A stretch of 39,896 nucleotides of DNA from Prevotella sp. (lineage in GTDB: Bacteria; Bacteroidota; Bacteroidia; Bacteroidales; Bacteroidaceae). The DNA lies in contig JAFVHN010000072.1 in assembly GCA_017474515.1 (NCBI GenBank), positions 1 to 39,896 of the forward strand, in the 5' to 3' direction. Below the pieces are notes generated by a model, which had not been told where the DNA came from, ran no database searches, and worked only from the letters and a program-made list of their open reading frames with translations. Positions 446-39,542 of the stretch are shown piece by piece. A program made the translations under genes and the position numbers. Each line of letters begins with the position of its first letter. Position 1 is the first letter of the stretch.

Positions 446-648
446 GAAAAATCTTGACAAAACAAGCCTCTTTTGTGTTGGTTTTGTAAATCGCTGAATA
501 TCAATAGTTTGAAGATTGTCCAAAGTTTGACCGCAAATTTCGGGGAGAAAACTTCAAGATTCCTCCTCTCAATCTTCAAGATTTCTCCTTGAAATTTGCG
601 GTCAAACTCTTTTGAGGGTTAAAAAATCCTTGAAAAATCTTGACAAAA
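446..648 (+). repeat. Family A interspersed element, copy A1
   Basis: This 203-bp element begins and ends with the identical 17-mer GAAAAATCTTGACAAAA (446-462 and 632-648). Inside it the arm at 524-541 (AGTTTGACCGCAAATTTC) is exactly complementary to 591-608, giving an 85-bp hairpin with perfect 18-bp arms and partly pairing inner sequence. The left half contains the family block TTTTGTAAATYGYTGAAWATCA. It sits in the gene-free stretch 361-759 between two convergent genes. The rest of that gap is AT-rich, with short CTTTTCAC repeats near 720-765 and no gene. Five more copies occur in the window. Confidence 0.9.
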
Positions 649-759
649 GGGAACGCCCCGGCGCCTTTCACTTTTCACTTGCGGACGCGATACATCGCGT
701 CCCTATTTTGAGGCGAGAGATGGCGGTAGCCTTTTTCACCTTTTCACTTTTTCACCTTT

Positions 760-1749
760 TCACTCTCCAAATCGTTGGCGGCATTGCTCAAGGATGGGAA
801 GGAGGGTGTCGAGGGTTTCGGCGCGGAGCATGGCAATGCGGGTTGGCCTGAAGTCGGGAATGCCTTTGAAAAGGGGTGTGGCGGCCAGGTGGCGGCGCGT
901 GTGGAGGATGCCGGGGCGCTCGCCGATGCGCTCCACGTTGATGCGCAGCTGCTCAATGAGGATGTCGAGTTTCTCGGAGAAAGACATCTCGGGCAGCGGC
1001 TCGCCGGGGTGGGCGAGGAAATGGTTGATTTCGCTGAACACCCACGGCCGTCCGAAGGTTGCCCTGCCCACCATGACGGCGTCAACGCCGTAGTTTTCAA
1101 AGGCGCCGAGGGCCTGGGCGGGTGTGGTGATGTCGCCGTTGCCGATAATGGGGATGGTGATGCGCGGGTTGCGTTTCACCTCGCCGATGAGCGTCCAGTC
1201 GGCCTCGCCGGTGTACATCTGCGACCGTGTGCGCCCGTGGATGGTCAGGGCCTGAATGCCGCAATCCTGCAGCTGTTCGGCCAGGGTGGTGATGATGAGT
1301 TGCTCGTGGTTCCATCCCAGCCGTGTCTTCACGGTGATGGGCGTTTTCACAGCGTTCACCACGTTGCGCGTGATGTCGAGCAGCAGGGGAATGTTCTGCA
1401 ACATGCCGGCTCCGGCGCCTTTTCCGGCCACCTTCTTCACCGGGCACCCGAAGTTGAGGTCGATGACGTCGGGGTGTGCCTCGGCCTCCACTATCTGTGC
1501 GGCCTCCACCATCTGCGGCACGTCGCGCCCGTAGATTTGTATGCCCACGGGGCGTTCCGCGTCGTCTATCTGTAGTTTGCTGACGGTGGTTTTCACCGAC
1601 CTCACGAGTGCTTCCGCCGACACGAATTCCGTATAGACCATGGCGGCGCCGAAGCGTTTGCAGAGGTGGCGGAAACCGATGTCGGTGACATCTTCCATGG
1701 GTGCCAGGAAGACAGGGCGGTGGCCCAGGTCAATGGTTCCTATTTTCAT
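760..1749 (-). CDS. dusB: tRNA-dihydrouridine synthase, DusB type
   Basis: This is an FMN-dependent, NADPH-using enzyme that reduces specific uridines in the tRNA D-loop to dihydrouridine. The 329-residue product has the usual length. It opens with the flavin-binding block FLAPMEDVTD (14-23) and carries the catalytic cysteine in NFGCPVKKV (Cys102). Further TIM-barrel signatures are TVKTRLGW, TIHGRTRSQMYTG and IGNGDI, then the phosphate-binding GVDAVMVGRATFGRPW. The ATG at 1749 starts directly on the conserved N-terminus. The gene lies 45 bases after dprA on the same strand and is probably the last gene of that operon. The subfamily call (DusB rather than DusA/DusC) rests on overall resemblance to nifR3-type proteins. 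Confidence 0.93.
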   Translation of the reverse strand: MKIGTIDLGHRPVFLAPMEDVTDIGFRHLCKRFGAAMVYTEFVSAEALVRSVKTTVSKLQIDDAERPVGIQIYGRDVPQMVEAAQIVEAEAHPDVIDLNFGCPVKKVAGKGAGAGMLQNIPLLLDITRNVVNAVKTPITVKTRLGWNHEQLIITTLAEQLQDCGIQALTIHGRTRSQMYTGEADWTLIGEVKRNPRITIPIIGNGDITTPAQALGAFENYGVDAVMVGRATFGRPWVFSEINHFLAHPGEPLPEMSFSEKLDILIEQLRINVERIGERPGILHTRRHLAATPLFKGIPDFRPTRIAMLRAETLDTLLPILEQCRQRFGE

Positions 1750-1794
1750 TAAGTACAGGGGTTTTGATGTTTAGTGGAGCCGTTCTTTGTTTGC

Positions 1795-2940
1795 TTACAT
1801 GTTGTATAGATGATAGGTTCCGCCGGCGAGCGGCCTCACCAGGCCCTTCATTTCAAGCGAGAAGAGCAGTGCAGCAAGGGCAGGCACGGCAATGTTGGCT
1901 TTCACGGCGATGGTGTTGAGTTGCAGGTCGTTGGTTTTCTGCAACAGCTCCACCACGGCCCTCTCGTCGTCGGTGAGCTGGGGGAAGAGCTGGCGCTCAA
2001 TGCCTTTCTCGCGCGTTTTCTGCTTTTCGGCCTCTTCCTGCCATCCCATGGCGGCGGTGAAGTCGTCGGCCGAGGTGATGAGCGCCGCCACGTTGTCGCG
2101 GATGAGGTTGTTGCAGCCCTCGCTGTAGGGTGCCCCCACGGCCCCGGGGAAGGCAAACACCTGCCGGCTGTAGCTGTTGGCAATGCGCATGGTGATGAGC
2201 CCTCCGCCCTTTGCGGCACTTTCTATGAGGATGGTGGCGTCGGCCATGCCTGCCACGATGCGGTTTCGCTTCACGAAATTCACCTTGTCGGCGCGTGTCT
2301 GCGTCATGTATTCCGTCAGTATTCCGCCTTGGTTTATCATTGCCCGCGCCGTTTCGCGATGTTGCGGCGGATAGAGCTCGTCGATGCCGTGAGCCAATAC
2401 GCCCACGGTCTGCATGCCCTGGGCCAGTGCCTGCCGGTGTGCGCTGATGTCCACGCCGTAGGCCAGTCCGCTCACGATGATGGCATCGGGGCAGCTCTGC
2501 CGCAGTCCGGCCATGAAATTCTTCACCAGGTCGTGCCCGTAGGCCGTGCAATGGCGGGTTCCCACAATGCTCACGATGTGCGTGGCGTTCAGGTCGGCCG
2601 TGCCGCGGTAGTAGAGCACCACGGGTGCGTCGGGGCAGTCCCTCAACCGGGCGGGATAGGCGCTGCTGGCCGGCGTGAGCACCTGCACGCCGTGTTTGTT
2701 GGCAAACTCCATTTCGCTCTCGGCGCGCCTGAGGGCATCGCCCCAGTCTTTTAGTGCTGCGGCAAGGCGCGGCTGGCAGTTTTCCACGTTGTCTTCCAGG
2801 TGGTTGCGGTGCTCATACACCTGCCAGGCATCGCCGAAATGGCGGTAGAGCAGCAGCGCGTTGGTGAGGTTGAGGCCGGCCAGGCGCGACAGGGCCATGG
2901 CATAGAGGGCATCGTCGGCATGTACAGGTTGCGGTGTCAT
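1795..2940 (-). CDS. dprA: DNA-processing protein DprA (Smf)
   Basis: DprA loads RecA onto incoming single-stranded DNA during transformation. The 381-residue product has an N-terminal helix-hairpin-helix-like region (about 10-75), then a Rossmann-like domain with GTRHCTAYG (127-135), SGLAYGVDISAH (157-168) and FVKRNRIVAG (222-231). The block GGGLITMRIA (245-254) follows, and a C-terminal winged-helix segment (about 320-378). The open frame runs much further upstream, but that part is the shadow of the thioesterase gene. The ATG at 2940 gives the normal N-terminus and overlaps the thioesterase stop as ATGA, suggesting translational coupling. Presence of dprA does not by itself prove natural competence. 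Confidence 0.93.
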   Translation of the reverse strand: MTPQPVHADDALYAMALSRLAGLNLTNALLLYRHFGDAWQVYEHRNHLEDNVENCQPRLAAALKDWGDALRRAESEMEFANKHGVQVLTPASSAYPARLRDCPDAPVVLYYRGTADLNATHIVSIVGTRHCTAYGHDLVKNFMAGLRQSCPDAIIVSGLAYGVDISAHRQALAQGMQTVGVLAHGIDELYPPQHRETARAMINQGGILTEYMTQTRADKVNFVKRNRIVAGMADATILIESAAKGGGLITMRIANSYSRQVFAFPGAVGAPYSEGCNNLIRDNVAALITSADDFTAAMGWQEEAEKQKTREKGIERQLFPQLTDDERAVVELLQKTNDLQLNTIAVKANIAVPALAALLFSLEMKGLVRPLAGGTYHLYNM

Positions 2941-3356
2941 GGCTGGCGGTTCAGGTTTTCCATATAATTGTCGAAGGCTCGTTCGTAGTCCTCGCTCCTG
3001 GCCAGCTTGCCGTTGACCAGGCACACCAGCACCATTTCCCCGCGGAAGCAGAGGGCCTGGTCGCTGGCGCGGAAGATGTCCTGGTGGAACACATATTTGA
3101 TGCCTTTGCGCTCCAGGGCGAGCTTCGAGATAAATTCGTCGTCGCATCTGAGCGGCACCTTGAATTGCAGGTTCATGCGCGCCACCACGGCATCGGTGCC
3201 CCGGCGGTGCATGTCGGCAAAGCTGAGGCCGCAGGCTTTCAGGAAGAGGTGGCGCGTGTGTTCGGCATAGTGCAGGTAGTTGGCGTTGTTCACAATGCCT
3301 TCGATGTCGCACTCATAGTCGCGAACCATCATTCGCGTTTCGTAGATATAATCCAT
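2937..3356 (-). CDS. Acyl-CoA thioesterase, YbgC/4HBT hotdog family
   Basis: This is a 139-residue single hotdog-fold protein. Its N-terminal block VRDYECDIEGIVNNANYLHY matches the 4-hydroxybenzoyl-CoA thioesterase/YbgC signature, in which the Asp of the D-x-x-G-I/V-V-x-N motif is catalytic. The central part MNLQFKVPLRCDDEF is the usual second strand region. Family members hydrolyse acyl-CoA or acyl-ACP thioesters; the substrate here is unknown. Its stop overlaps the dprA start by four bases, and DUF2851 lies 94 bases upstream on the same strand. Confidence 0.88.
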   Translation of the reverse strand: MDYIYETRMMVRDYECDIEGIVNNANYLHYAEHTRHLFLKACGLSFADMHRRGTDAVVARMNLQFKVPLRCDDEFISKLALERKGIKYVFHQDIFRASDQALCFRGEMVLVCLVNGKLARSEDYERAFDNYMENLNRQP

Positions 3357-3450
3357 TTGTCGTTGAAATTCATAGCCCCATCATCCCCAATGAGGTGGAG
3401 CGGGGCTTTCTGTTTATTCACTTTTCCAAGGGGAAATCAGGGATGCGGCC

Positions 3451-4749
3451 CTACCTTTTCTTCAGGTATTCAAACCCAATGCGGCAGCGCAGGCAGTCGC
3501 GCCGGTCGCAGTACTGGCTTTTCAGCTGTATGAGCGCCTGGCTGCCCCCGGCGGTGGAGACGGTGAGGCCGCATTGTTGCCACATCCGCGTGATGTGGTT
3601 GTCCTCGGCCTTCATCTGTTCCAGCAGGTCGAAGGCGCGGTCGCACAGGGCCTCCTTCATGTGGTGGCGCCCGTAAGCGAAGAGCATCGGAATGGCGGTG
3701 TTGACAATCAGGAGGTTGACCGACGCATCCGACAACCGCCGCGTGCTCTGACGGGTGGCCCGGCCGAAGGCGTAGTGCGTTTCCCAATAAGGCGTGGTGG
3801 TGGTCTGAAAGAGCTTACGAAGCTCGTCAACCGTGGTACACTCTATCAACTGGCTCAGTCCGGCGCGGCGGTCGTGGTAGAGCATGGTCAGCTGCGACAG
3901 TCTGATGTGGGGGAAATTTTGCGGCCTCAGCCTCAGGAATCGCCATTGGGCGGCGTCCATGTGCTGCATCGAGAACTTGTGGGCCAGGTACTGGTATTCG
4001 TTCCTCAGGCGGTTGAAATAGTCATCGGCCAGCATGGCCTCGCGGTGCCGCTTTGCCGCGGCCTCCACGTCGAGCAATCCGGCCTGCCCCATGAAGATGG
4101 CCTCCACCTGGAAGGGGTCGTCGCGGTGGTGCACGGCGGCCTGCAGCGGCAATGTCAGCGCCCACGCCTCGAACGCGTCGCCGTTGACGCCGAATCCGAA
4201 ATTTCGTGCCAGCGTAACGAAATTTCCGTCCTCCCACGAGCCGTTGCATCGCTCCACGCGCTGCCTTATCTGCTCGGTCTTCTGCTCCAGGCGCTCCGTT
4301 TGCAGGGCGCTCAGCCACGCATGGAGGGTGAGCCGCGGCAATTCGGGAATGAGACGGTGGCACGGCGGATAACGGTCCTCGCGCAGCAGTTCCTCATAGT
4401 GGTCAACGACATGTTGCGGCACCTGCACCTCCACTTGTGGCGGCTGGTGGCCCGAGGCGGTGAGCACCGTGGTGTCGGCCTGGCCGCACACATGCAGCAC
4501 CACGTTGTCGTAGCGCGGGTCCGTCTGGTGCCCGTGGGCCTGCCAGTCGCTGGCACGCTGGTGGATTTCCACGTTTCCCACCCACAGCGTGCCGTCGATT
4601 TTCACTTTCGCGTTGAAGAAATCGGGACCGGCATGGCGGCGGTTGTACAATCCGGGGTCCACCACCTCCACGGCCCGCCCGTCGGTGGTGGTCAGGCCCG
4701 TTGGCGGCAGCAGGCGGTGTTTCCAGCAATAGTGCAGCAGCTGTTCCAT
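3451..4749 (-). CDS. DUF2851 family protein
   Basis: The 432-residue product matches the DUF2851 family, common in Bacteroidetes and of unknown function. Recognisable blocks are the N-terminus MEQLLHYCWKHRLLP, GLYNRRHAGPDFFNAKVKI, WVGNVEIHQRASDW, YDNVVLHVCGQAD and near the C-terminus WQQCGLTVSTAGGSQALIQLK. A short cysteine cluster RRDCLRCRIG precedes the end and could bind metal or contribute to a zinc finger-like end. No signal peptide or membrane segment is visible. It is the first of four same-strand genes (this gene, thioesterase, dprA, dusB). The ATG at 4749 is followed upstream by 530 bases of gene-free DNA. Confidence 0.85.
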   Translation of the reverse strand: MEQLLHYCWKHRLLPPTGLTTTDGRAVEVVDPGLYNRRHAGPDFFNAKVKIDGTLWVGNVEIHQRASDWQAHGHQTDPRYDNVVLHVCGQADTTVLTASGHQPPQVEVQVPQHVVDHYEELLREDRYPPCHRLIPELPRLTLHAWLSALQTERLEQKTEQIRQRVERCNGSWEDGNFVTLARNFGFGVNGDAFEAWALTLPLQAAVHHRDDPFQVEAIFMGQAGLLDVEAAAKRHREAMLADDYFNRLRNEYQYLAHKFSMQHMDAAQWRFLRLRPQNFPHIRLSQLTMLYHDRRAGLSQLIECTTVDELRKLFQTTTTPYWETHYAFGRATRQSTRRLSDASVNLLIVNTAIPMLFAYGRHHMKEALCDRAFDLLEQMKAEDNHITRMWQQCGLTVSTAGGSQALIQLKSQYCDRRDCLRCRIGFEYLKKR

Positions 4750-4995
4750 GCCACAAAACTACATATTTTTTTTTAATTGGTGAAAAAAGCCGCCGTTTTT
4801 TTTGCTTTTTTCCTTCATGTTCCGCCGAATCAGCCCCTTTTTTAGGAGCTGGCGCCTGGAGGCGCGGGCCAGGTTGTGAACAATATGTTCACGGATGGAG
4901 GGTGATTTGTTAAAGAATCTTGAGAAAACATGGGGCGGGAACGCCGGACTGCACTGCTGGAAAGGGGCTGAAGGAAGGGGTGGGCAGAAAAGAAA

Positions 4996-5195
4996 TTGTA
5001 AAGATTTTTCAAAAGGAAATTAAAGTATGGGAAAGCTTGACCGCAAATCTCGGGGAGAGATTTTGAAGATCGAGGGGAGAAATCTTGAAGATTGAGGAGA
5101 GAAATTTGCGGTCAAACTTATGGCCATTTTGAAGCCGCTGATTATCAACGAGTTATAAAAATGCCGGAAAACTGCCCGTTTTGTAAAGATTTTTC
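4996..5195 (-). repeat. Family A interspersed element, copy A2
   Basis: This 200-bp copy is in the opposite orientation to the other five. Its ends are degenerate versions of the family repeat, carrying CTTTACAA where most copies have CTTGACAA (reading the minus strand; 4996-5010 and 5179-5195). The hairpin arms are 5034-5051 and 5101-5118, with two mismatches. It lies in the gene-free stretch 4750-5282 upstream of the DUF2851 gene and downstream of the transporter gene. The remainder of that gap (about 4750-4990) shows only AT-rich sequence, a short hairpin near 4876-4892 (TGTGAACAATATGTTCACG) and no gene. Confidence 0.85.
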
Positions 5196-5282
5196 AACAA
5201 ACTTTGCCTGGGTTACACACGAAAAATGAGGGCAAAGCGGCCGCCTCGCCAATTTACATATTTTAAGAAATGGGAAGGGTGG

Positions 5283-6593: not shown

Positions 6594-6662
6594 GTTGTCG
6601 TGTGTGAAGAGATTCTTCTTTAAAAAACGATTATTTCAGTTTTGCATTTGCTCATTTTTTTT

Positions 6663-6786
6663 GGAGTTCAGGAGTACAGGAGTTTCAGTAGTTCAGACAT
6701 TAGTTCTGAAGGCTGCCTTATCGACCGTCTTTTTCGAAGTTGGGAGTATTGTCTGAACTCCTGTACTTCTGTAACTCCTGAACTCC
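6663..6786. repeat. Family C palindromic element, copy C1
   Basis: This element of about 124 bp starts with repeats of GGAGTTCA/GGAGTACA and ends with the reverse complement (CTCCTGAACTCC). Its core GTTCAGACATTAGTTCTGAA and AGTATTGTCTGAAC matches copy C2 at the window end in opposite orientation. It occupies part of the gene-free stretch 6594-7054; the rest holds AT-rich DNA and the promoter of the S41 protease gene. Shorter fragments of the same 8-bp repeat occur at 5995-6014 and 31178-31202. Confidence 0.8.
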
Positions 6787-6967
6787 ATTAACTTGCGCGA
6801 AAGTTTAAATCGATGATTTGTCCTCTCAAAGGCTTGTATCTTAATTTGGGGACAAAATTACTTGAATTATTTTTATTTTTTGCGCAATCGTCTTGAAAAT
6901 CATCGTAAAATATCTTGTACTTTCGTTTTTTTCTTCAAAAAAATCGGGAAATGTGCGGTTTATATTG

Positions 6968-8707: not shown

Positions 8708-8733
8708 CCACCGACTTTCTCGCGGTTTTTTTT

Positions 8734-9027
8734 ACCACGGACAAACACGGACTTTCACGGACTATCTTTTTTTTCCGTGTCAGTCCGTGTTCATCCTTGG
8801 CAATATTTTAACCACGGAAGGACACGGACTTTCACGGTCTTTCTTTATTTCCGTGTCAGTCCGTGTTCGTCCTTGGCAATATTTTAACCACGGAAGGACA
8901 CGGACTTTCACGGTCTTTTTTTTCCGTGTCAGTCCGTGTTCGTCCGTGGCAATATTTTAACCACGGAAGGACACGGACTTTCACGGACTATCTTTTTTTC
9001 CGTGTCAGTCCGTGTTCTTCCGTGGTT
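8734..9027. repeat. Family B tandem hairpin cluster, four units
   Basis: Four head-to-tail units of about 73-77 bp fill almost the whole stretch 8708-9040. Each unit opens with AACCACGGAMRRACACGGAC, has a T-rich centre and closes with CAGTCCGTGTTCNTCCKTGG, so each folds into a long hairpin. Units 1-3 are joined by GCAATATTTT. The cluster separates two convergent genes, where it might act as a bidirectional transcription stop. Two-unit versions occur at 17217 and 31215. There is no other gene in this gap. Confidence 0.9.
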
Positions 9028-9040
9028 AAAAAAATAATGG

Positions 9041-13432: not shown

Positions 13433-14269
13433 ATGAGTAAAAAGTTTTTTGCGCTGGCCCTGTGCCTGGCGCTGGCCCTTCCGGCCTTTTCGCAGAAGAA
13501 AGTGAAGAATGCAGCCTCGCCGGTGCTCTTCGAGCATCCCTGGCAGGGGCGGCGCGTGGCCTATTTCGGCGACTCGATTACCGACCCACGCAATAGCGGA
13601 TCGAAGACAAAATGGTGGCAGTTCCTGCACGACTGGCTGGGCATAGAGCCCTACGTCTATGCCGTGAGCGGCCGGCAATGGAACGACATTCCCAGGCAGG
13701 CCGACCAGCTGCTCGCCGAGCACGGTCAGGACTTCGACGCCATCCTGGTGTTTATTGGCACCAACGACTACAACGCGGCGGTGCCCATCGGCGAGTGGTT
13801 CGTGGAAACGGAAGACTCGGTGCTGGCCGCCGTCCACCGCGACAAGGCCATGACCCTGCGCCGCCACCGCCGGCCGTCGATGGACAGCGGCACCTATCGC
13901 GGACGCATCAACCGCGCATTGGAATACCTGAAAAGCACGTTCCCCACCAAGCAGATAGTGCTGCTCACGCCCATCCACCGCGCCTTCTTCTACGGCAACG
14001 AGAAGAACATCCAGCCCGACGAAGGCTATCAGAACGAATGCCACGAATGGTTCTCCAGCTACGTGGAGAGCGTGAAGCAGGCCGGCAACATCTGGGCGGT
14101 GCCCGTCATCGACTTGAACGCTGCCTGCGGCCTTTACCCCCTGCTTCCGCAGCACTTGCAATACAGCCACAACGAGCGCGACCTGCTCCATCCCAACGAC
14201 GAGGGGCACCGCCGCATGGCACGCACGGTGATGTATCAGCTGGTGGCACTGCCCTGCGTTTTTGATTAA
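13433..14269 (+). CDS. Exported SGNH/GDSL family hydrolase
   Basis: The 278-residue product has a signal peptide ending near LPAFSQ. It carries the SGNH landmarks in order: block I FGDSITD (nucleophile Ser), block III GTNDYN (Asn) and block V LLHPNDEGH (Asp and His). Such enzymes are esterases, often deacetylating polysaccharides or lipids in the periplasm or at the surface; the substrate here is not evident. The ATG at 13433 was chosen because it starts a clean signal peptide and lies downstream of the -7 box; the frame is open 28 codons further upstream. It is divergent from the pantothenate kinase gene and ends before a CTAG repeat. Confidence 0.88.
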   Translation: MSKKFFALALCLALALPAFSQKKVKNAASPVLFEHPWQGRRVAYFGDSITDPRNSGSKTKWWQFLHDWLGIEPYVYAVSGRQWNDIPRQADQLLAEHGQDFDAILVFIGTNDYNAAVPIGEWFVETEDSVLAAVHRDKAMTLRRHRRPSMDSGTYRGRINRALEYLKSTFPTKQIVLLTPIHRAFFYGNEKNIQPDEGYQNECHEWFSSYVESVKQAGNIWAVPVIDLNAACGLYPLLPQHLQYSHNERDLLHPNDEGHRRMARTVMYQLVALPCVFD

Positions 14270-14284
14270 GGGGAACTTTAGATT

Positions 14285-14347
14285 TTCTAGAAGTTCTAGA
14301 ATCTCTAGATTTTCTAGATTATCTAGAATCTCTGGAATCTCCAGAAT
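14285..14347. repeat. Family D 9-bp CTAG tandem array, copy D1
   Basis: About seven units of a 9-bp repeat, TCTAGAATC/TCTAGATTT/TCTGGAATC, lie between the SGNH gene and the DPP7 promoter. The array is dense in the tetranucleotide CTAG, which is usually rare in bacterial DNA. A second array occurs at 39221-39282. Confidence 0.85.
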
Positions 14348-14359
14348 AGCAAGGATAAA

Positions 14360-14392
14360 TTTGGCCTTTCAACCGATTATTAGTACCTTTGC
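14360..14392 (+). promoter_or_regulatory. Promoter of the S46 peptidase gene
   Basis: TTTG (14360-14363), a 20-base spacer and TACCTTTGC (14384-14392) form a complete Bacteroidetes promoter 38 bases before the start codon. Confidence 0.8.
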
Positions 14393-17206: not shown

Positions 17207-17216
17207 GGCATTGTCT

Positions 17217-17353
17217 TAACCACGGATGAACACAGACAATCACGGACTTCCTTTTTTCCGTGCCAGTCCGTGTTCATCCGTGGTTTTATTTTACCTCGGA
17301 CAAACACGGACTATCACGGACTTTCTTTTTCCGTGCCAGTCCGTGTTCATCCG
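17217..17353. repeat. Family B tandem hairpins, two units
   Basis: Two units (17217-17285 and 17293-17353) of the CCACGGAT/CACGGAC hairpin follow directly after the DUF4294 stop codon. Each has arms that read CCACGGATGAACAC and GTGTTCATCCGTGG around a T-rich centre. They share the gap 17207-17689 with family A copy A3. Confidence 0.85.
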
Positions 17354-17405
17354 TTTTTTTCGTTTTGGCGGATTTGAGGTGGATAGACAGCAAGGTTTAA
17401 ATTGG

Positions 17406-17608
17406 TAAAAAATATTGACAAAATCGCCAATTTTGCGAGTGTTTTGTAAATTGTTGAAAATCAGCAGTTTGAAAAATGCCCGAGGTTTGACGGCAAATTT
17501 CAAGGAGAGATTTGCCAATTCTCTCCTCTCAAACTGCCAAATCTCTCCCTGAAATTTGCCGTCAAACTCTTTAGGGGAACAAAAATCCGTTGAAAAATCT
17601 TGACAAAA
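17406..17608 (+). repeat. Family A interspersed element, copy A3
   Basis: This 203-bp copy starts with TAAAAAATATTGACAAAA and ends with GAAAAATCTTGACAAAA. Its hairpin arms, GTTTGACGGCAAATTTC (17485-17501) and its exact reverse complement (17551-17567), carry CGG/CCG where copies A1, A2 and A6 carry CCG/CGG. The inner stem uses TTTGCCAATT rather than TTTGAAGATT. It is followed at 17616-17635 by GCGCTTCGCTAAATGATAAA. It lies between two convergent genes. Confidence 0.9.
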
Positions 17609-17689
17609 CGACCCCGCGCTTCGCTAAATGATAAAGGAAGCGGAAATAATTGTCCGGAACTCCGGAAGGAAGCGGAATATGTAAAAAGC

Positions 17690-22185: not shown

Positions 22186-22188
22186 AGC

Positions 22189-23786: not shown

Positions 23787-23894
23787 CTACATTTCTATGA
23801 CATTACGATGACAAAATGCAAAAAACTTGCACTTTTAGCACTTTTTTTCTTTCTCTCCGGCGTCGTGGAGTGATTTTCAGTTGGGTAAAACCAT

Positions 23895-24098
23895 GAAAAA
23901 TCTTTACATTTTCGGCATTTTTCGACCGTCTTTCGTAAGTTGTTGATTATCAATGACCTTGAAGCAGTCGTAAGCTTTGCCCTCAAATCTCGGGCCGAAA
24001 TCTACAAATTTTCTCCCCGAGAATTGGCAAATCTCTCCCCGAAATTTGCCGTCAAACCTTTTGGGGTGCATCAAAAATCATGAAAAATCTTTACAAAA
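23895..24098 (+). repeat. Family A interspersed element, copy A4
   Basis: This 204-bp copy starts with GAAAAATCTTTACA and ends with GAAAAATCTTTACAAAA (24082-24098). The right hairpin arm GAAATTTGCCGTCAAAC (24041-24057) is intact, but the left arm (about 23973-23990) has diverged, so this copy would fold poorly. It lies in the divergent promoter gap 23747-24233, between the FKBP and sirtuin promoters. The remaining bases of the gap hold those promoters and no gene. Confidence 0.8.
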
Positions 24099-30684: not shown

Positions 30685-30929
30685 TTATTTTGCGAAAAAA
30701 GCACCCAACCTTGCACATTGCACCCCCAAATGTGCAACTTTTCGGTGCTTTTTTGACATAGATTAACTGTTGGTAGCGTTAACAGCGCCACTTTTCCGCC
30801 CAAGAGAGAGGCGTGAGCTGCCCAAGGCGGGAACCGGTCAACGTGCCGTCTGAACTCCAAAAGTCAAGATTGAGGAACTTGTATTCATAATTACTCTTTC
30901 AGTCGGATAGCGGCATGGATATAAATCGG

Positions 30930-31133
30930 TAAAAAATCTTGACAAAACCGCCAATTTTCTTGGGTGTTTTGTAAGTTGTTGAAAATCAGTGGTTTGAAAA
31001 TCGCCCTTGGTTTGACGGCAATTTTCAAGGAGAGATTTGCCAATTCTCTCCTCTCAAACTGCCAAATTTCCCCCTGGAATTTGCGGTCAAGTCTCTTGGG
31101 AAATCCCAAATGCCATGAAAAATCTTGACAAAA
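30930..31133 (+). repeat. Family A interspersed element, copy A5
   Basis: This 204-bp copy starts with TAAAAAATCTTGACAAAA and ends with GAAAAATCTTGACAAAA (31117-31133). The left arm (31009-31026) carries the CGG form and the right arm (31077-31091) the CGG-pairing form of the other subtype, so arm pairing is weakened. The inner stem resembles copy A3. GCGCTTCGCTAAATGATAAA follows at 31139-31158. It lies between the divergent acpP and secreted-protein genes. Confidence 0.85.
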
Positions 31134-31214
31134 CCAAGGCGCTTCGCTAAATGATAAATGATTCAAGTGCATGCTTAAGGAGTTTAGGAGTTTAGTAGTT
31201 TTCGCGGCTTTCAG

Positions 31215-31347
31215 CCACGGACAACCCCGGACTGACACGAAATAATTTGATAGTCCGTGAAAGTCCGAGTTCATCCGAGGTTAAAAAAAACTACGGACAA
31301 CCCCGGACAGACACGGAAAAAAAGAAAGTCCGTGTTCTTCCGAGGTT
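31215..31347. repeat. Family B tandem hairpins, two units
   Basis: Two units (31215-31283 and 31291-31347) carry CCACGGACAACCCCGGAC or CTACGGACAACCCCGGAC on the left and GTCCGTGTTCTTCCGAGG-like right arms. They are more diverged than the cluster at 8734. They lie in the divergent gap upstream of the secreted-protein promoter. Confidence 0.8.
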
Positions 31348-31453
31348 AAAAAACTCCTTTAAAATTCCCGCTCCGTCACCTTTTTTTTTCTTGTAAAATC
31401 ATTATTTATAGGTAATCGCGCACAAATTGATGCCCCCTTTCGCAATAAACCGT

Positions 31454-33311: not shown

Positions 33312-34823
33312 ATGCAACAGCCATTACTCATCTACAACACCCTGCACCGGCAGAAAGAACTTTTCACACCTCTGAACGCACCCAACGTGGGCATGTATGT
33401 CTGCGGACCAACCGTCTATGGCGACCCCCACCTGGGGCACGCACGCCCGGCCATCACCTTCGACATACTCTTCCGATACTTGCGCCACCTGGGCTACAAG
33501 GTGAGATACGTGAGAAACATCACCGACGTGGGGCACCTGGAGCACGATGCCGACGAGGGCGACGACAAGATAGAGAAAAAGGCGCGACTGGAGCAGCTGG
33601 AGCCCATGGAGGTGGCACAATACTACACCAACCGCTACCATGAGGCCATGGACAGCCTCGGAGTGCTCAGGCCAAGCATTGAGCCGCACGCCACGGGGCA
33701 TATCATCGAGCAGCAGCAGCTGGTGAAGGAAATCATGGACAACGGCTTCGCATACGTCTCCAACGGCTCGGTTTATTTCGACCTGGAGGCTTACAGCCAT
33801 AAATTCCAATACGGCAAATTGTCGGGGCGCTCGCTCGAAAACGTCATCAACGAGAGCCGCGAACTCGACGGCGCCGGAGAAAAACGCCATCCCTACGACT
33901 TCGCATTGTGGAAAAAGGCGTCGCCCGAGCACATCATGCGATGGCCGTCGCCATGGAGCGACGGATTCCCGGGATGGCATTGCGAGTGCACGGCCATGGG
34001 GCGGAAATACCTCGGGGCGCATTTCGACATTCACGGCGGAGGCATGGACCTCGTGTTCCCCCACCACGAATGTGAGATTGCACAGGCCACGGCATCGCAG
34101 GGCGACGACATGGTGCGCTACTGGATGCACAACAACATGATCACCATCAACGGACAGAAGATGGGCAAGTCGCTCGGAAACTTCATCACGTTGGAGCAGT
34201 TCTTCACTGGCAACCACGAGAAGCTCACGCAGGCCTATGCCCCCATGACCATCCGCTTCTTCATCCTCTCGGCCCATTACCGCAGCCCGGTGGACTTCTC
34301 AAACGAGGCATTGCAGGCCGCCGAGAAGGGCCTGGAAAGGCTGATGAACGCCATTGGCGACCTGAAGCGCATCAACGCCGCCGAAAAGAGCGACGCGCAG
34401 ACAGCAAAGGTGGTGGGCTCGCTCAGGCAGAAATGCTACGACGCCATGAACGACGACTTGCAGACGCAGGTGGTCATCAGCCATCTGTTCGAGGCTTGCC
34501 GGGTGGTGAACACGCTGCTCGACCACAAGGCCGCCATCAGCGCAGAGGACCTCGGGGAACTCTCGTCAACCATGCGGCTCTTTGCCCACGACCTGCTGGG
34601 CCTGCGCGCCGCAACAGGCGGTCAGGCGAATGCCGCCGACGACGGACCCGGACCGCGTGAGGAAGCTTTCGGAAAGGTGGTTGACATGGTGCTGGCCTTG
34701 CGCGCAAAGGCAAAGGCAGCAAAGGACTGGGCCACCAGCGACCAGATTCGCGACGAGCTGGCAGAGGCCGGATTCGAGGTGAAAGACACCAAAGACGGCG
34801 TCACCTGGAAACTGAACAAATAG
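33312..34823 (+). CDS. cysS: Cysteinyl-tRNA synthetase
   Basis: This class I enzyme charges tRNA-Cys. The 503-residue product has the zinc ligand Cys31 in [10 protein letters not shown], the HIGH-type motif HLGH (40-43), the zinc-site blocks WHCECTAMG and [10 protein letters not shown], and the KMSKS-type motif [10 protein letters not shown]. The C-terminal DALR and anticodon-binding parts follow, ending near DGVTWKLNK. Length is normal. Start chosen by promoter position (see 33274). It ends before a strong bidirectional terminator shared with the convergent rubredoxin gene. Confidence 0.96.
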
Positions 34824-34888
34824 CCCTCTCCCCCTGGGACGGTCCCCGCAGGCCGCTTTGTCAACGAATGCGGCCAATATAGCAAAAA

Positions 34889-34934
34889 CAAAAAAGCCCC
34901 GCGAAACAACGCTCGTTTCGCGGGGCTTTTTTTG
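34889..34934. terminator. Bidirectional terminator between cysS and rubredoxin
   Basis: AAAAAAGCCCCGCGAAAC (34890-34907) pairs with GTTTCGCGGGGCTTTTTTT (34915-34933) around a 7-base loop. A runs on the left and T runs on the right let it serve both convergent genes. Confidence 0.93.
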
Positions 34935-34959
34935 TTGCCGTAACAACTTCCGGAAGTTT

Positions 34960-35118
34960 TTATTCCTCGCTGAAGTCTTCTTTTCCCACACCGCAGAGGG
35001 GGCAAACCCAGTCCTCGGGCAGGTCTTCAAAGGCCGTGCCGGGGGCCACGCCGTTGTCGGGGTCGCCGACTTCGGGGTCATAGACGTAGCCGCAAGTGTC
35101 GCAAATGTACTTTTTCAT
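34960..35118 (-). CDS. Rubredoxin
   Basis: This 52-residue protein is a one-iron electron carrier. The start ATG is at 35118 and TAA at 34960-34962. The two Cys-x-x-Cys iron sites are Cys6/Cys9 in [12 protein letters not shown] and Cys39/Cys42 in [11 protein letters not shown]. The family core [20 protein letters not shown] lies between them. In anaerobes rubredoxin donates electrons to peroxide- and oxygen-detoxifying enzymes. It lies 38 bases after the GT9 gene on the same strand and ends 26 bases before the shared terminator. Confidence 0.95.
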
Positions 35119-35156
35119 AATGATTTCTTTGATTTAGAAGTTAATAATATTTGGGG

Positions 35157-36218
35157 TTAATGAGTTGAATGTGAAGCGTTGTTGATGACCTGCTCCAGCT
35201 TGTCGGCAACCGCGGCGGGACTGATGGCATGCAGGCAGGCATAGTCGCCGCGACGGCAAGGCTTGTTGCCGAAAATGCTGCACGGACGGCAGGGCAGGTC
35301 GGCCTGAAGCACATGGTCGGAAGGCTGTCCATAGCCCATAAAGCCGGCGTAGGGATGCGTGGCACCCCAGATGCTCACAACGGGCGTGGCGGTGAGCGAT
35401 GCCAGGTGCATGTTGCTGCTGTCCATGGTAAGCATGGCGTCAAGATGGCTCATCAGCACAAGTTCGTCGGCAAGGCCACCCAACTGTCCCGAGGCATTGA
35501 CGCACTGTGGAAAGCGTTGCTCCCATTGTGCGAAGGCATCCATTTCCGCCTTTCCGCCACCGAAGAGGAAAATGCGGCAGCCGGGACGCCGCTCAGTCAA
35601 CAGGGCAATCACCTGCTCCGTCAGCTCCGGAGGGTAGGTCTTGCCGGGATGGGCGGCAAAGGGCGCCACCCCAATCCATTCGCCTTCCTTCTGCCTGAAA
35701 GCCTCGGGAAGGGTTCCAAGGTCGCCGCCTTCCGGTGGGAAAATCGAACGGAAACGAAGGTCCACGGGATAGCCAAGTTTCTGGAACACCTCGCAATAGT
35801 TGTCAATCGACGTGGGCAACTGCTTCATGCGGCGGAAGCGGTTGCTCACCAGCCGCCGCTTCCCGTGGCGGTGCTTGTTGATATGTTCCACGCGGAAACG
35901 GCCCAGGTTGAACCTCATCCTGAGATATTCCGAGCGAAGCACATTGTGAAGGTCGGCCACGGCGGTGAAACGCTTGGCCGTCAATCGCCGGTAGAGGCGG
36001 TTGAGCCCCTTCACGCCGTGGTATTCCTGCTTCACGTCGGCCTCCATGAAGCTCACGTTGTCGGGCATGTGTTCAAAGAGCGGACGGGCAAAAGGCCGGC
36101 TGAGCACGGTGAAACGCACCTTCGGATACTGGCTGGCCAACGACCATACCACGGGCACGGCCATGGCCACATCGCCCAAAGCCGAAAAGCGTATGATGAG
36201 AACGTGCTCGCGTTTCAT
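35157..36218 (-). CDS. Glycosyltransferase family 9 (heptosyltransferase-like)
   Basis: The 353-residue product resembles lipopolysaccharide heptosyltransferases, which add heptose to the inner core at the cytoplasmic face. The N-terminus IIRFSALGDVAMAVPVVWSL is the GT9 opening. The donor-binding C-terminal half shows VAPFAAHPGKTYP, FLFGGGKAEMDA and the block LDAMLTMDSSNMHLASL, followed by SIWGATHPYAGF. A C-terminal Cys cluster (CRPCSIFGNKPCRRGDYACL) is common in GT9 proteins. It follows the DUF4254 gene by 17 bases. The actual sugar transferred is not evident. Confidence 0.88.
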   Translation of the reverse strand: MKREHVLIIRFSALGDVAMAVPVVWSLASQYPKVRFTVLSRPFARPLFEHMPDNVSFMEADVKQEYHGVKGLNRLYRRLTAKRFTAVADLHNVLRSEYLRMRFNLGRFRVEHINKHRHGKRRLVSNRFRRMKQLPTSIDNYCEVFQKLGYPVDLRFRSIFPPEGGDLGTLPEAFRQKEGEWIGVAPFAAHPGKTYPPELTEQVIALLTERRPGCRIFLFGGGKAEMDAFAQWEQRFPQCVNASGQLGGLADELVLMSHLDAMLTMDSSNMHLASLTATPVVSIWGATHPYAGFMGYGQPSDHVLQADLPCRPCSIFGNKPCRRGDYACLHAISPAAVADKLEQVINNASHSTH

Positions 36219-36235
36219 GCCTCAATCACCGACGG

Positions 36236-36844
36236 TTATTTTCCCTTGTTATAGAGCACCGGATTGGTGGCCGGGTCGTTGTACATTTTCATCTGACGAT
36301 ACACCTTCATGTAGATGCGGCCGGCCTGGATGTCCTCCAGCAGCTGGTCGATGGCCGTGGAGAGGTCCACCTGCTGTTCCAGGAGCACGGCCAGCTTCTC
36401 GCGGCAACGCGCCTTGTGCTCGGCGTCGGCGTCGGTGCGCTCGGCCTGCTCACGCATGTGGTAAATCTTCAGGGCCAGGATGCTGAGGCGGTCCACCGCC
36501 CACGCCGGGCTCTCCGTGTTGAGGCGCGCCTCGGGCAACGGCGTCACGTCGCTGTAAAGCTGGCGGAAGTAGCTGTCAATCTGCTCCACCAAGTCCGTGC
36601 GGTCCTGGTTCGAACGGTCGATGCGCCGCTTCAGCTGAAGGGCCTCCACGGGATTGATGTGCGGGTCGCGGATAATGTCTTCATAGTGCCATTGCACCGT
36701 GTCGATCCAGCACTTCAGGTAAAGGCGGTTTTCTATCGAACCCCGCTCATAAGGGTTGTTGATGGGTGTGTCGATGTTGTCCTTGATATGGTAATCAAGG
36801 ATGGCTTTGTTGAAAATCTCGTTGCAGAGTTGTGTAAATGACAT
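36236..36844 (-). CDS. DUF4254 family protein
   Basis: The 202-residue product matches DUF4254, an uncharacterised, mostly helical family of Bacteroidetes. Landmarks are FTQLCNEIFNKAILDYH near the start, NPYERGSIENRLYLKCWIDTVQWHYED and WAVDRLSILALKIYHM. No signal or membrane segment is visible. The ATG at 36844 was chosen over one 14 codons upstream, whose extra residues look non-coding (AT-rich). It is followed at 17 bases by the GT9 gene, a pairing that suggests a link to lipopolysaccharide core synthesis (inference). Confidence 0.85.
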   Translation of the reverse strand: MSFTQLCNEIFNKAILDYHIKDNIDTPINNPYERGSIENRLYLKCWIDTVQWHYEDIIRDPHINPVEALQLKRRIDRSNQDRTDLVEQIDSYFRQLYSDVTPLPEARLNTESPAWAVDRLSILALKIYHMREQAERTDADAEHKARCREKLAVLLEQQVDLSTAIDQLLEDIQAGRIYMKVYRQMKMYNDPATNPVLYNKGK

Positions 36845-37015
36845 GCTTTCGTTCGTTTTTTTATTTCTTTGCGCAAATATAGACATTTATTTTGAATTGA
36901 CAAACATTTTCGCACAAAATTCTGCCCCGCCCCGCCATTTCCATTTTTTTGCCGCCCAACAATCAACGCCCCGCACCCCATGCCCACGCCCCGGTTTCTT
37001 TCGCAAATTAGCCTA

Positions 37016-37702
37016 TTATTGGTGGTTCATCAGCCAGGCGAAGCCCTTGGCTGTTCTTTCGTCGGGGTGCTGGAAGTGGTTGCCGACATTCCATTCCAGA
37101 GTGGTGTTGACGGCCTGGGCGGTCAGCAGGTCGTGTTGGCGGCGGATGTTGTTGCCTACCTGGGCCATCACGACATTCCGCGTCTTTTCCTCCTTGTCGC
37201 CGAGGCTGAGATAGACGGCCGGGGCGAAGGGCCTGTGCGCCAGGGCATACTCCATCCACCGAGGGTACCATACTGAAGGCGATACGGCCGCTATTCCGTT
37301 GAACACCGGTGATTGATAGGCCGCCCAGAGTGCAAAGAGCCCTGCCAGGGAATATCCGCCCAAGAGGCAGGGCATGGTGTCTTTATGGTACAGCCCCGCC
37401 TGTTCGAGTTGCGCCATCAGCTCTCCCTCGATGAAGGCGAGCGTGGCAGGGGCCCCGTCGCCAAACGGCGTCTTTCCGAAAACGGCCGGAGCGGACCATG
37501 GCGTGAGCTCGCGTTGCCAGTCCTTTATCTGAAAGGCCACGAGCGTGAAGGGCCTTCGTGCCAACGACCGTATTGTTTCCACTTCTTGGTCGAGCACCTC
37601 CCGTTCGTGTTCGTCGGTGGGTTGAATCAGCAGGCATTCCGGCCGCTCAGACTTGTAAAGGGTGCAGGTCCTGCCAGCGGCCAACATGGTGTCTTTCTTC
37701 AT
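37016..37702 (-). CDS. Alpha/beta hydrolase, esterase-like
   Basis: The 228-residue product has an alpha/beta-hydrolase fold of the IroE/esterase-D-like group. The nucleophile elbow is GGYSLAGLFALW, with Ser as nucleophile; YLSLGDKEEKTRN is the usual strand before the acid; the catalytic His is probably in VGNHFQHP. No signal peptide is visible, so it is predicted cytosolic. The substrate is unknown. A divergent small gene starts at 37820; the short intergenic space contains TACATTTGC on the minus strand (37730-37722), a candidate -7 box. Confidence 0.8.
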   Translation of the reverse strand: MKKDTMLAAGRTCTLYKSERPECLLIQPTDEHEREVLDQEVETIRSLARRPFTLVAFQIKDWQRELTPWSAPAVFGKTPFGDGAPATLAFIEGELMAQLEQAGLYHKDTMPCLLGGYSLAGLFALWAAYQSPVFNGIAAVSPSVWYPRWMEYALAHRPFAPAVYLSLGDKEEKTRNVVMAQVGNNIRRQHDLLTAQAVNTTLEWNVGNHFQHPDERTAKGFAWLMNHQ

Positions 37703-37752
37703 ATTATATATAAATAATGTTGCAAATGTAGTGAATTCTGATGATTATTGTC

Positions 37753-37760
37753 TAACTTTG
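37753..37760 (+). promoter_or_regulatory. Candidate -7 box of the 50-residue ORF
   Basis: TAACTTTG lies 60 bases before the ATG at 37820 and matches TAnnTTTG. No convincing -33 box accompanies it. Confidence 0.35.
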
Positions 37761-37819
37761 TGGCGTAATTTGAGAATTATCAGTAAAAAAACTCCTGAAC
37801 TTCATATAATTATTGACTT

Positions 37820-37972
37820 ATGGCATATACAGACCGTTTCAAACAATCTGACGACGACCGTCGCGAAGAGCTTGTCCAGCGGATAGAGCGCTCGTTGAAG
37901 ACACTTACCCTTCAGGAGCTGGAAGCGCTCTATTACGACATGTCAACGAAGAACTACATCAACGAGCAATAG
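37820..37972 (+). CDS. Small acidic hypothetical protein (50 residues)
   Basis: An ATG at 37820 opens a 50-codon frame ending with TAG at 37970-37972. The product begins MAYTDRFKQSDDDRREEL and is charged and helical, with heptad-like leucines (RIERSLKTLTLQELEALYYDM). GC-rich codons match those of neighbouring genes, unlike the AT-rich flanks, which favours real coding. I recognise no family. It is divergent from the esterase-like gene and stands alone. Confidence 0.6.
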   Translation: MAYTDRFKQSDDDRREELVQRIERSLKTLTLQELEALYYDMSTKNYINEQ

Positions 37973-38058
37973 AGTAAAAATTGAAAAGTTGAAAAGGGTG
38001 TAAAATTCGTCGCCGTTGTTTTCATCTCAAAAAAAATTAGTGTTGAATTACAATTTTT

Positions 38059-38090
38059 TTTGTACTTTCACGGAATATTATTACCTTTGC
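38059..38090 (+). promoter_or_regulatory. Promoter of the small membrane protein gene
   Basis: TTTG (38059-38062), a 19-base spacer and TACCTTTGC (38082-38090) form a complete Bacteroidetes promoter 23 bases before the ATG. Confidence 0.8.
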
Positions 38091-38113
38091 ACTCGAAAAC
38101 GAAGGAATTTGTT

Positions 38114-38302
38114 ATGGCAGAAGAATTAAAAGGTTATCAGCCGTCGGCCCAGACCAGCCGCCGCCGCGCCCAGGACAAGAAGCGCTATGGCTACGGCAAC
38201 AACAAGAGTGAGCGCGTGCAGCGCTTGTTTTTCTGGCTCGTGGCCGCCGTGGCCGTCATTGTGCTGGCCTTGTGCGTGGTGATATATTTTCTTGACACAT
38301 AG
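38114..38302 (+). CDS. Small single-pass membrane protein (62 residues)
   Basis: The 62-residue product has a basic N-terminal half (SRRRAQDKKRYGYGNNKSER) and one membrane helix (about 38-59, FFWLVAAVAVIVLALCVVIYF), ending FLDT. By the positive-inside rule the N-terminus should be cytosolic. It has a perfect promoter and a strong terminator, so it is a single-gene unit. I recognise no family; its role is unknown. Confidence 0.82.
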   Translation: MAEELKGYQPSAQTSRRRAQDKKRYGYGNNKSERVQRLFFWLVAAVAVIVLALCVVIYFLDT

Positions 38303-38336
38303 CTTTCCCACGTAAGGCGACATTGCACGGTGGCTT

Positions 38337-38399
38337 GGCACCCGCGCCCCTGTATATGGGAATGAACCCGTATGCAGGGGCGCGGTGCGTTTTTTTTTG
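38337..38399. terminator. Rho-independent terminator between convergent genes
   Basis: GCACCCGCGCCCCTG on the left pairs with CAGGGGCGCGGTGC on the right (one bulged base), extended by GGG/CCC near the loop, and is followed by nine T residues. It lies after the small membrane protein gene and before the end of the convergent RDD gene. Confidence 0.85.
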
Positions 38400-38404
38400 T
38401 AAGG

Positions 38405-39124
38405 TCAGATGTTGTTGAACTCGTAGTAGTGGTAGTCGTGGAGCACCTTGTAGAGGAACCGCTCGTCGCTCAGGTCGGAGTTGACGGCCAGCACCTGCTT
38501 CACCTTCTCGGCCAGCAGCGAGATGCGCTCGGAGCGGTCGGCCGACAGGGGCTCCAGGGTGTTGGTGATAACCTGCGCCTGCGCCTCCGACAGGTCGGCA
38601 GCCTGCGGGAAGGTGGGTTTGTAGTCGTCGGTGAGGTAGGAATATTCCTCAAGGTTCAGCCGCCACGACTGTTGCTGGTTCTGCTTGATGACCATGGTTC
38701 CGGCGGCCATGTCGCCGAATCGCTGCGAGCTCTTCGTGGCCATGATGGGAATAAGCCCCATGAATCCCAGCATGGGCCCTTCCACCAGGAAGAGCAGCCA
38801 GCGCAGGAGGAAGTCGCCGATGCCTGGCATGGAGCCGTCAACCTTCACAACGCGCAGGTCCAGGAAGAATTTTCCGGGGCTCTGGCCGTTGTTGAACACC
38901 TCCCACAGCAGGTCGTAGGTGAGCATCGGTACATAGAAGATGAATGCGAAGACAACGCGCGCGTTGTCGCTGATGTTCATATTGGCAAAAAACACCAGCG
39001 TTGCCACCAAGTAGATGAACAGAATCACCATGTCGATGATTTTTGCCCGTATGCGGTCCCACACACTGGCCGGCACCTGGCTGATGCGCACAAACTGTCC
39101 GGTAACGATATTTGAATAGGCCAT
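38405..39124 (-). CDS. RDD family membrane protein
   Basis: The 239-residue product has an RDD domain in its first 150 residues. It opens with ASVWDRIRAKIIDMVILFIY, with helices around 28-48, 55-75 and 105-130, and the family block GQSPGKFFLDLRVV. A soluble, acidic helical C-terminal part (about 160-239) follows. RDD proteins are poorly understood; some act in transport. TATTTTTGC on the minus strand (39161-39153) is a candidate -7 box about 30 bases before the start. Confidence 0.88.
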   Translation of the reverse strand: MAYSNIVTGQFVRISQVPASVWDRIRAKIIDMVILFIYLVATLVFFANMNISDNARVVFAFIFYVPMLTYDLLWEVFNNGQSPGKFFLDLRVVKVDGSMPGIGDFLLRWLLFLVEGPMLGFMGLIPIMATKSSQRFGDMAAGTMVIKQNQQQSWRLNLEEYSYLTDDYKPTFPQAADLSEAQAQVITNTLEPLSADRSERISLLAEKVKQVLAVNSDLSDERFLYKVLHDYHYYEFNNI

Positions 39125-39220
39125 GAAAATGGGTCTTTTTGTTCTTTCGGCTGCAAAAATACATAAAAAGAATGAATTTAATGGCTTGGGGGCGGAAAAA
39201 CTGATGATGGGGGGGAGGTT

Positions 39221-39282
39221 TTTCTAGACTCTCTAGATATTCTAGAGTCTTTAGATTTTCTAGATTTTCTAGATTTTCCAGG
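39221..39282. repeat. Family D 9-bp CTAG tandem array, copy D2
   Basis: About seven units of TCTAGATTT/TCTAGACTC/TCTAGATAT follow one another with a 9-bp period, as in copy D1 at 14285. It is the first of four repeats that fill the gene-free stretch 39125-39896. Confidence 0.85.
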
Positions 39283-39339
39283 CCAAAAGGTTCGATTTTG
39301 GGGGCCGGAAAGGTGGGTAGTGGAAGGGGGTAAAATTGG

Positions 39340-39542
39340 TAAAAAATATTGACAAAAGTGGCAAAATTTTGCCGGTTTTGCAAGTTGTTGAAAATCAGCG
39401 GCTTGCAAACCCCTTTGGTTTTGGCCGCAAATTTCGGGGAGAGATTTTGAAGATTGAGAGGAGAAATCTTGAAGATCTCTCCCCGAAATTTGCGGTCAAA
39501 CTCTTTCGAGGGACCAAAAAATCATGAAAAATCTTGACAAAA
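39340..39542 (+). repeat. Family A interspersed element, copy A6
   Basis: This 203-bp copy starts with TAAAAAATATTGACAAAA and ends with GAAAAATCTTGACAAAA (39526-39542). The hairpin arms are the longest of the family: CCGCAAATTTCGGGGAGAGA (from 39425) pairs exactly with the reverse complement ending at 39495, and pairing continues inward through TTGAAGATT. It is followed by a tandem GCGCTTCGC repeat. Confidence 0.9.

Follow-up and report, generated by a model that had tools for sequence, protein, structure and literature searches.

Intergenic elements of near-fixed geometry and restricted spacing in a Prevotella genome, tentatively read as chromosome-architecture sites

Dispersed intergenic repeats are usually taken for relics of selfish DNA. 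Among them, palindromic repeats that contain an IHF-type site are a known kind, of which the RIB/RIP (BIME-1) sequences of E. coli are an example. These sequences, the BIMEs that contain an IHF site, are intergenic, palindromic and present in many copies, and are thought to aid genome organisation; RIBs are located at the 3' ends of transcription units. Repeats are also described from Porphyromonas gingivalis, which belongs to the same broad bacterial group as Prevotella. The accessible sections of the respective sources state that BIME-2 has gyrase sites (PMC6379681), that the small, many-copy Correia/NEMIS repeats of Neisseria have a 155-bp form with an IHF site and that ERIC/RU-1 repeats are dispersed and have long stem-loop potential (PMC2229807), that BrickBuilt and other miniature inverted-repeat transposable elements (MITEs) of P. 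gingivalis are dispersed, intergenic and non-coding (PMC4596501), and that insertions of bacteriophage Mu in vivo rise sharply ~5 kb outside its ends, a cis-immunity that excludes ~5 kb per copy (PMC7350765). The element described here resembles RIB/RIP in being intergenic, palindromic and many-copy and in a predicted IHF-type site, the Neisseria repeats in small size, copy number and such a predicted site, ERIC/RU-1 in dispersal and long stem-loop potential, the P. gingivalis elements in being dispersed, intergenic and non-coding, and Mu in the exclusion around each copy. It occurs six times in a stretch of 39,896 nucleotides from Prevotella sp. (contig JAFVHN010000072.1), called the window below, which is one entire contig of a draft genome of 118 contigs and 3.51 Mb.

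The reading ranked first, tentatively, is that the element is a dispersed DNA site of near-fixed geometry for a multi-protein complex, of the chromosome-architecture type and with a reach of a few kb. A mobile element of the immunity type is ranked second, and the two may be joined. The element has the order DR1 - dyad - palindrome - DR2, where DR1 and DR2 are direct repeats of ~18 bp. Its anatomy was derived from 95 unique copies, a set that leaves out duplicates, copies cut by the end of a stretch and matches of fewer than 190 model positions (including a diverged copy on contig C27) and retains two low-scoring copies on contig C94. The dyad is 23 bp long and lies 14 bp from the left palindrome arm in 95/95 copies. 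The distance from DR1 to DR2 is 186-187 bp in 85/95 copies, that from DR1 to the dyad 24-25 bp in 93/95, and that from the right arm to DR2 22-24 bp in 93/95. The terminal direct repeats and the palindrome built on TTTGAC-SGCAAATTTC, both reported in a preliminary description of the window, were confirmed, the palindrome measuring 83 bp in 94/95 copies. Both ends of the element bear the similar ~18-bp sequence in direct orientation, and terminal inverted repeats of the MITE type are absent.

The dyad between DR1 and the palindrome, AA-N4-YTGA-N3-TCAR-N4-TT, was not named in the preliminary description. Its half TCAR-N4-TT is part of the IHF consensus WATCARNNNNTTR, known from other bacteria (a 13-bp consensus, spelled as in the accessible text of PMC9820253). 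An exact match is present on the + strand of 34/95 copies, where shuffles give 1.9, and on the - strand of 28/95. The N4 positions of the dyad lack stem-like covariation, which makes it look like a site for a dimer or a pair of IHF-type cores set back to back. The palindrome tip is interchangeable, being of the TTCAAG or the GCCAA type; the tip modules (alignment columns 138-172) switch together on both arms, and some copies have inverted tips. Most copies also have a left extension, ~27 bp left of DR1 (GGATAGCG..CATGGG), which in 21/95 matches its consensus at 8/20 positions or fewer.

The family is large. The end repeat GAAAAATCTTKACAAAA has 295 matches in the genome with at most one mismatch, while the reversed control has none. 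Full-length copies, each spanning the first to the last position of a model built from 43 copies, number at least 150, a lower bound because 150 of 1698 first-look candidates were scored. A sample of 801,445 bases (nine contigs, window included) holds 61 copies, 60 of which match at least 190 of the 211 model positions, while the diverged C27 copy matches partly. At one copy per 13 kb in this sample, the genome would hold roughly 270. The preliminary description would have been undone by a search that found few further copies or showed them to be remnants of a larger known transposon; copies proved numerous, and the sequence examined showed no larger transposon. Empty attachment sites in the form of lone end repeats were considered and rejected. 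Five end-repeat-like stretches lie outside matched copies in the sample: two are next to the diverged C27 copy, one of these being on the opposite strand, another is 30 bases away from the end of a contig, and the last two are isolated, with one mismatch.

Comparison of the sequences suggests that the individual copies seem to be under selection. Nearest-neighbour identity among the 95 copies has a median of 78%, and neighbours at 90% identity or more exist for 4/95 copies over all columns and 8/95 over the core, which gives little indication of recent copying. In the main set of 44 nearest-neighbour pairs (78-85% identity), DR2 differs at 21/748 positions (2.8%), DR1 at 58/748 (7.8%), the outer palindrome arms at 46/660 (7.0%) and 56/660 (8.5%), the inner arms at 55/396 (13.9%) and 47/396 (11.9%) and the tip at 10.1%. 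The linkers differ at 336/834, 182/396 and 341/990 positions (34-46%) and the right flank at 103/176 (59%); the left extension is not constrained in the pair comparison. The ten fixed dyad columns differ in 4/440 cells (0.9%) and the dyad N4 columns in 146/352. The order of constraint is kept, with smaller ratios, both in 21 more distant pairs (DR2 8.7% and DR1 16.0% vs linkers 45-54%) and in the 10 closest (3.5% and 7.1% vs 22-24%), and 88/95 copies have no more than one mismatch over 15 positions of DR2. When decay was simulated by 25% extra substitutions in the conserved columns, 93/95 copies were still detected, at a median of 85 bits; 3/61 real copies score below 100 bits. Decayed copies would thus be detected, and detection bias is unlikely to be the source of the apparent constraint. 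The sparing of the motifs and the small number of low-scoring copies are unlike what is expected of immobile transposon relics.

Copies seldom lie close to each other. In the sample, the shortest of 52 spacings is 4,553 bases and the mean is 13.3 kb, with a coefficient of variation (CV) of 0.59. For a test based on the gaps between genes, 55/61 copies were assigned to gaps, giving 46 spacings, and compared with a null in which the same numbers of divergent, convergent and tandem gaps were drawn randomly, weighted by length. None of the 46 spacings is below 4.5 kb, where 9.0 were expected and none of 4000 draws gave zero; the CV is 0.56 vs 0.77 in the null (P 0.0045). A control repeat in the same kind of gaps showed no avoidance (26 gaps; 4 observed vs 2.1 expected), and four other control repeats had too few sites or spacings to tell.

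The same limit recurs with different sequences in another species of the genus, G016, available as one 3.17 Mb contig. Its family combines end repeats of its own (TTGTAAA..TTAACA) with the dyad and with palindromic arrays, in a similar layout. In 957,011 bases chosen for holding copies there are 93 copies and 67 spacings, one of them below 4.5 kb; uniform placement predicts 25.6, and never fewer than 14 were obtained in 4000 draws. Over the entire contig, among the matches listed from 150 scored candidates, 1/135 spacings is below 4 kb, compared with 20.9 expected (19.8 on a gene-like grid); 135/137 matches were used, two second matches at already listed sites being left out. Between nearest neighbours in G016 the fixed dyad bases and TTGTAAA are mostly spared, and adjoining columns differ at about 0.4-0.5. 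The copies show no replichore polarity.

Elsewhere in the genus, loci in the genomes G066, G132, G188, G014, G298, G122 and G318 hold elements of ~300-430 bp with direct repeats and different interiors. The second end is more diverged and was partly recognised by eye in G298, G122 and G318; some loci (L048, L130) show one end only, and at one locus in G017 the other end motif is inverted. The dyad has matches in 60/159 genomes (control total 7, both strands of the near-palindrome being counted), including 25 and 15 matches in two genomes that belong to other families in the order; dyad-rich species include G053, G058, G065 and G454. When one copy was used for a DNA search of six relatives, a single weak match resulted (39 bases, in G012).

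The six copies of the window all lie where the preliminary description had placed them. Their parts and gene settings are as follows.

Copy 1: 418..648, + strand; left extension 418-444, DR1 445-462, dyad 488-510, palindrome 525-607, DR2 631-648; near a contig end, with only the right-hand gene neighbour within the contig.
Copy 2: 4994..5196, - strand; DR1 5179-5196, dyad 5132-5154, palindrome 5035-5117, DR2 4994-5011; weak left extension at about 5197-5218, - strand; tandem gap, flanked by DUF2851 and Vut_1 genes.
Copy 3: 17379..17608, + strand; left extension 17379-17405, DR1 17406-17423, dyad 17448-17470, palindrome 17485-17567, DR2 17591-17608; convergent gap.
Copy 4: 23894..24098, + strand; left extension not recognisable, DR1 23894-23911, dyad 23937-23959 (altered in its right half), palindrome 23974-24057, DR2 24081-24098; divergent gap, flanked by FKBP and Sir2 genes.
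Copy 5: 30903..31133, + strand; left extension 30903-30929, DR1 30930-30947, dyad 30973-30995, palindrome 31010-31092, DR2 31116-31133; divergent gap.
Copy 6: 39313..39542, + strand; left extension 39313-39339, DR1 39340-39357, dyad 39382-39404, palindrome 39419-39501, DR2 39525-39542; near a contig end, with only the left-hand gene neighbour within the contig.

The left extension is recognisable (12-15/20 positions) in copies 1, 3, 5 and 6 (at 446, 17406, 30930 and 39340), weak (9/20) in copy 2 (4996) and absent (5/20) in copy 4 (23895). The gene calls give one tandem setting (4996), one convergent (17406) and two divergent (23895, 30930), while 446 and 39340 each have one neighbour missing at a contig end; the preliminary description had counted two convergent settings.

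Several other repeats occur in the window. Repeats of GCGCTTCGCTAAATGA adjoin the right side of three of the six (17610-17639, 31133-31162 and 39543-39593), as if the families prefer each other. Imperfect palindromic CACGGACTTTCACGGAC repeats, partly in tandem, occur at 8726-9035, 17211-17366 and 31206-31353, and 9-bp tandem repeats of the TCTAGATTT type at 14261-14368 and 39207-39296. Inverted repeats of the AACTCCTG type lie at 6662-6795 and 39768-39892; they occupy 26 gaps in the 801 kb sample and show no spacing avoidance.

A mechanism for a chromosome-architecture site can be proposed in outline. An IHF/HU-type protein would bend the dyad at its two back-to-back IHF-like cores, and the bend would bring together proteins bound to the direct repeats and to the palindrome. 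The palindrome itself could form a cruciform where the DNA is negatively supercoiled. Over a few kb, the complex would act locally on chromosome architecture or supercoiling; within this range a second copy would be redundant or excluded, leading to a minimum spacing. The copies would have spread by a copying process, suggested by linkers that remain alignable, and then been retained copy by copy through selection. Copying, gain at different places in each lineage and the short-distance limit together suggest transposition with cis-immunity, and the constraint on each copy with its near-fixed geometry suggests a function on DNA. Among the three options of the preliminary description, a nucleoid or structural element fits best, if taken at the level of DNA; its options at the level of RNA found no support.

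A number of observations weigh against an architectural role. The sequence TGAAWWATCTTKACAAAA was found in 21/398 same-genus genomes (source genome included; one match in the control), and since 377/398 lack the exact end repeat, a function in this form is not general. One pair of copies, on contig C89, is 3.7 kb apart, the closest noticed by eye among at least 150, and the spacing limit is therefore not absolute. The lone short spacing in G016 is 838 bases, between a weak pair (47 and 35 bits), the next being 4,742. The overall spacing in G016 is uneven among the matches listed (CV 1.16 vs 0.99 in the null), stretches of up to 190 kb are without a copy among these matches, and just the short distances are missing. 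The preference for divergent gaps described below is absent there, copies occupying 16/67 divergent, 19/63 convergent and 48/250 tandem gaps, and positions are not common to G016 and the source genome beyond chance (odds ratio 1.37, P 0.40). Binding of an IHF-type protein is putative, resting on a consensus from other bacteria, and a limit near 4.5 kb would also be given by transposition immunity. The stretches without a listed copy on the G016 contig (C1) range from 87 to 190 kb and may be islands of recent DNA or reflect the extent of the search. The proposal that positions are shared with G016 was tested and is unsupported: among 169 comparable gene sides from 88 ortholog pairs, a copy is present in both genomes at 4, in one at 39 and in neither at 126. 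A smaller comparison had one partly syntenic case.

It is possible, though somewhat less probable than an architectural role, that the copies are a non-autonomous transposon family, for which a cis-immunity of ~5 kb would stem from a transposase and its AAA+ target-capture partner, a protein like MuB or TnsC. The direct repeats and the palindrome would then be transposase sites, the dyad an IHF-type bend site, and each species would have its own family. Exclusion of further copies near a copy is the pattern of cis-immune transposons of the Mu/Tn7/Tn3 type, although its cause here can be suggested only, and the limit near 4.5-4.8 kb in two species is close to that of Mu in vivo. Species-specific families with a common end motif, and positions not common to both species, likewise speak for transposition. 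The gap between the FKBP and Sir2 genes, 490 bp with the element here, measures 117-316 bp in 20/21 syntenic relatives and 953 bp in the other, these relatives being too distant for an empty site to be read base by base; none of 29 sir2 loci of relatives has an end repeat upstream of sir2, and one has a single match on the other side. Upstream of sir2 in another species (G053, locus L094), a dyad-like site and hairpins were noticed by eye.

Other results speak against transposition alone. The ends are direct rather than inverted repeats (one G017 locus looks inverted). Matches cover at least 190/211 positions in 60/61 copies, although short split halves could escape, and no gene-carrying element was seen in the 801 kb sample, where no search aimed at a parent transposase was made and to which reading of the genome was confined. 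Copies that do not move should decay evenly, yet in the 44 pairs the motifs are spared ~4- to 16-fold, and few copies score low. A search with one copy gave no match in plasmid and phage records at E 0.01. The 17-base repeat is present in 25 viral contigs, in none of which an element could be recognised convincingly (best E 0.09). The mobile-element option of the preliminary description is thus borne out as to a species-specific family, positions not common to the other species and alignable linkers, but the constraint on individual copies is left unexplained by mobility alone.

The gene context bears on a third explanation, a transcriptional insulator or regulator site preferring gaps between divergent promoters, which is unlikely. 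The element is, as are MITEs, short, non-coding, intergenic and many-copy: in 59/61 copies any overlap with a predicted gene is 60 bp or less, and the remaining two overlap predicted 5' gene ends, where start codons are uncertain. In the sample, 24/50 divergent, 5/48 convergent and 26/233 tandem gaps hold a copy (divergent vs convergent, Fisher 5e-5), and the preference persists in gaps with at least 300 bp beside the element (20/33, 4/22 and 17/56, respectively). The exclusion of a purely terminator role by the preliminary description was correct. The copy between the FKBP and Sir2 genes sits between two sequences that, judged by eye, resemble promoters belonging to these genes themselves. 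A promoter role for the repeats was weighed by eye and set aside. In G016, as noted, the divergent enrichment is absent; moreover, both orientations are present and distances to genes vary widely. In tandem gaps 8/26 copies are oriented with the genes (P 0.08), giving no clear orientation rule.

A further variant, which we regard as distinctly improbable, is that the copies are immunity beacons, that is, selected decoy transposon ends at which bound transposase strips the target-capture ATPase from nearby DNA, shielding several kb on each side. In the sample, 66% of the DNA that separates copies is no more than 5 kb away from one of them. Such beacons, if real, would explain together the spacing limit, the constraint on each copy, the geometry, the species-specific sequences (through an arms race) and the turnover of positions.

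Even less probable is a structured RNA, either a small RNA or an RNA processing element, which was rejected on the statistics of base pairs. The copy at 17406 folds as RNA far better than shuffles (z -8.3), because it is a palindrome, and the excess of Watson-Crick cells in the palindrome (2843 vs 2716 in shuffles, z 8.8) would be given by a DNA palindrome too. The mismatch cells comprise 147 G:U (G:T) and 170 A:C, so that the G:U excess of RNA-type compensation is missing, indicating that the element acts as DNA rather than RNA. In the two other putative stems covariation is slight or absent (z 2.3 and 0.4), the window has no Rfam match at the gathering threshold, and the copies follow no clear orientation rule. 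Least credible, and largely refuted, is a REPIN-like element moved by a RAYT transposase: the genome has one gene above the Y1_Tnp cut-off, but that gene is flanked by a different, GTAG-tagged repeat, its 3.3 kb locus is without a copy of the element, and Y1_Tnp genes occur in 7/9 genomes with the end repeat vs 8/11 chosen without it. This RAYT-like gene (locus L189:1200-2140, contig C24 near 23184) and its flanking GTAGGGACATAC..GTATGTCC palindromes look like a REPIN-RAYT pair unrelated to the element.

Compared with the described systems, the element has a conserved dyad that resembles the IHF consensus, a putative counterpart of the IHF site of BIME-1/RIB. Going by their descriptions, RIB/RIP differ in being built of short repetitive extragenic palindromes (REPs) without terminal direct repeats. 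The location of RIBs at 3' ends is not that of the element, which is found in 5/48 convergent and 24/50 divergent gaps. We know of no report of a hard minimum spacing for RIB/RIP. None is mentioned in the accessible sections of PMC6379681. Correia/NEMIS repeats have 24-bp terminal inverted repeats, a target duplication and TA termini in place of direct repeats, and ERIC/RU-1 repeats have 7-bp terminal inverted repeats, TA termini and effects exerted via RNA, with no terminal direct repeats listed (PMC2229807, accessible sections). BrickBuilt elements, unlike those described here, have terminal inverted repeats, compared with the ends of insertion sequences, and internal 23-nt tandem repeats, and 8 of their 19 copies lack the leader, the tail or both (PMC4596501, accessible sections). 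Mu, as far as the accessible text of PMC7350765 describes it, is a 37-kb phage with a transposase and MuB, whereas the element has no gene. No description that combines terminal direct repeats, constraint on each copy and a minimum spacing was found in the open literature searched, as far as its texts were accessible, subscription literature lying outside the scope. The near-fixed geometry, the limit of ~4.5 kb and the same limit in a relative with different sequences suggest a type of element so far unrecognised, one that organises the chromosome or spaces its own copies. Should immunity underlie the spacing, the family would be a natural, genome-wide record of transposition immunity. Set beside the known repeats, it makes testable the old question of whether the interspersed repeats of bacteria organise the chromosome or merely parasitise it.

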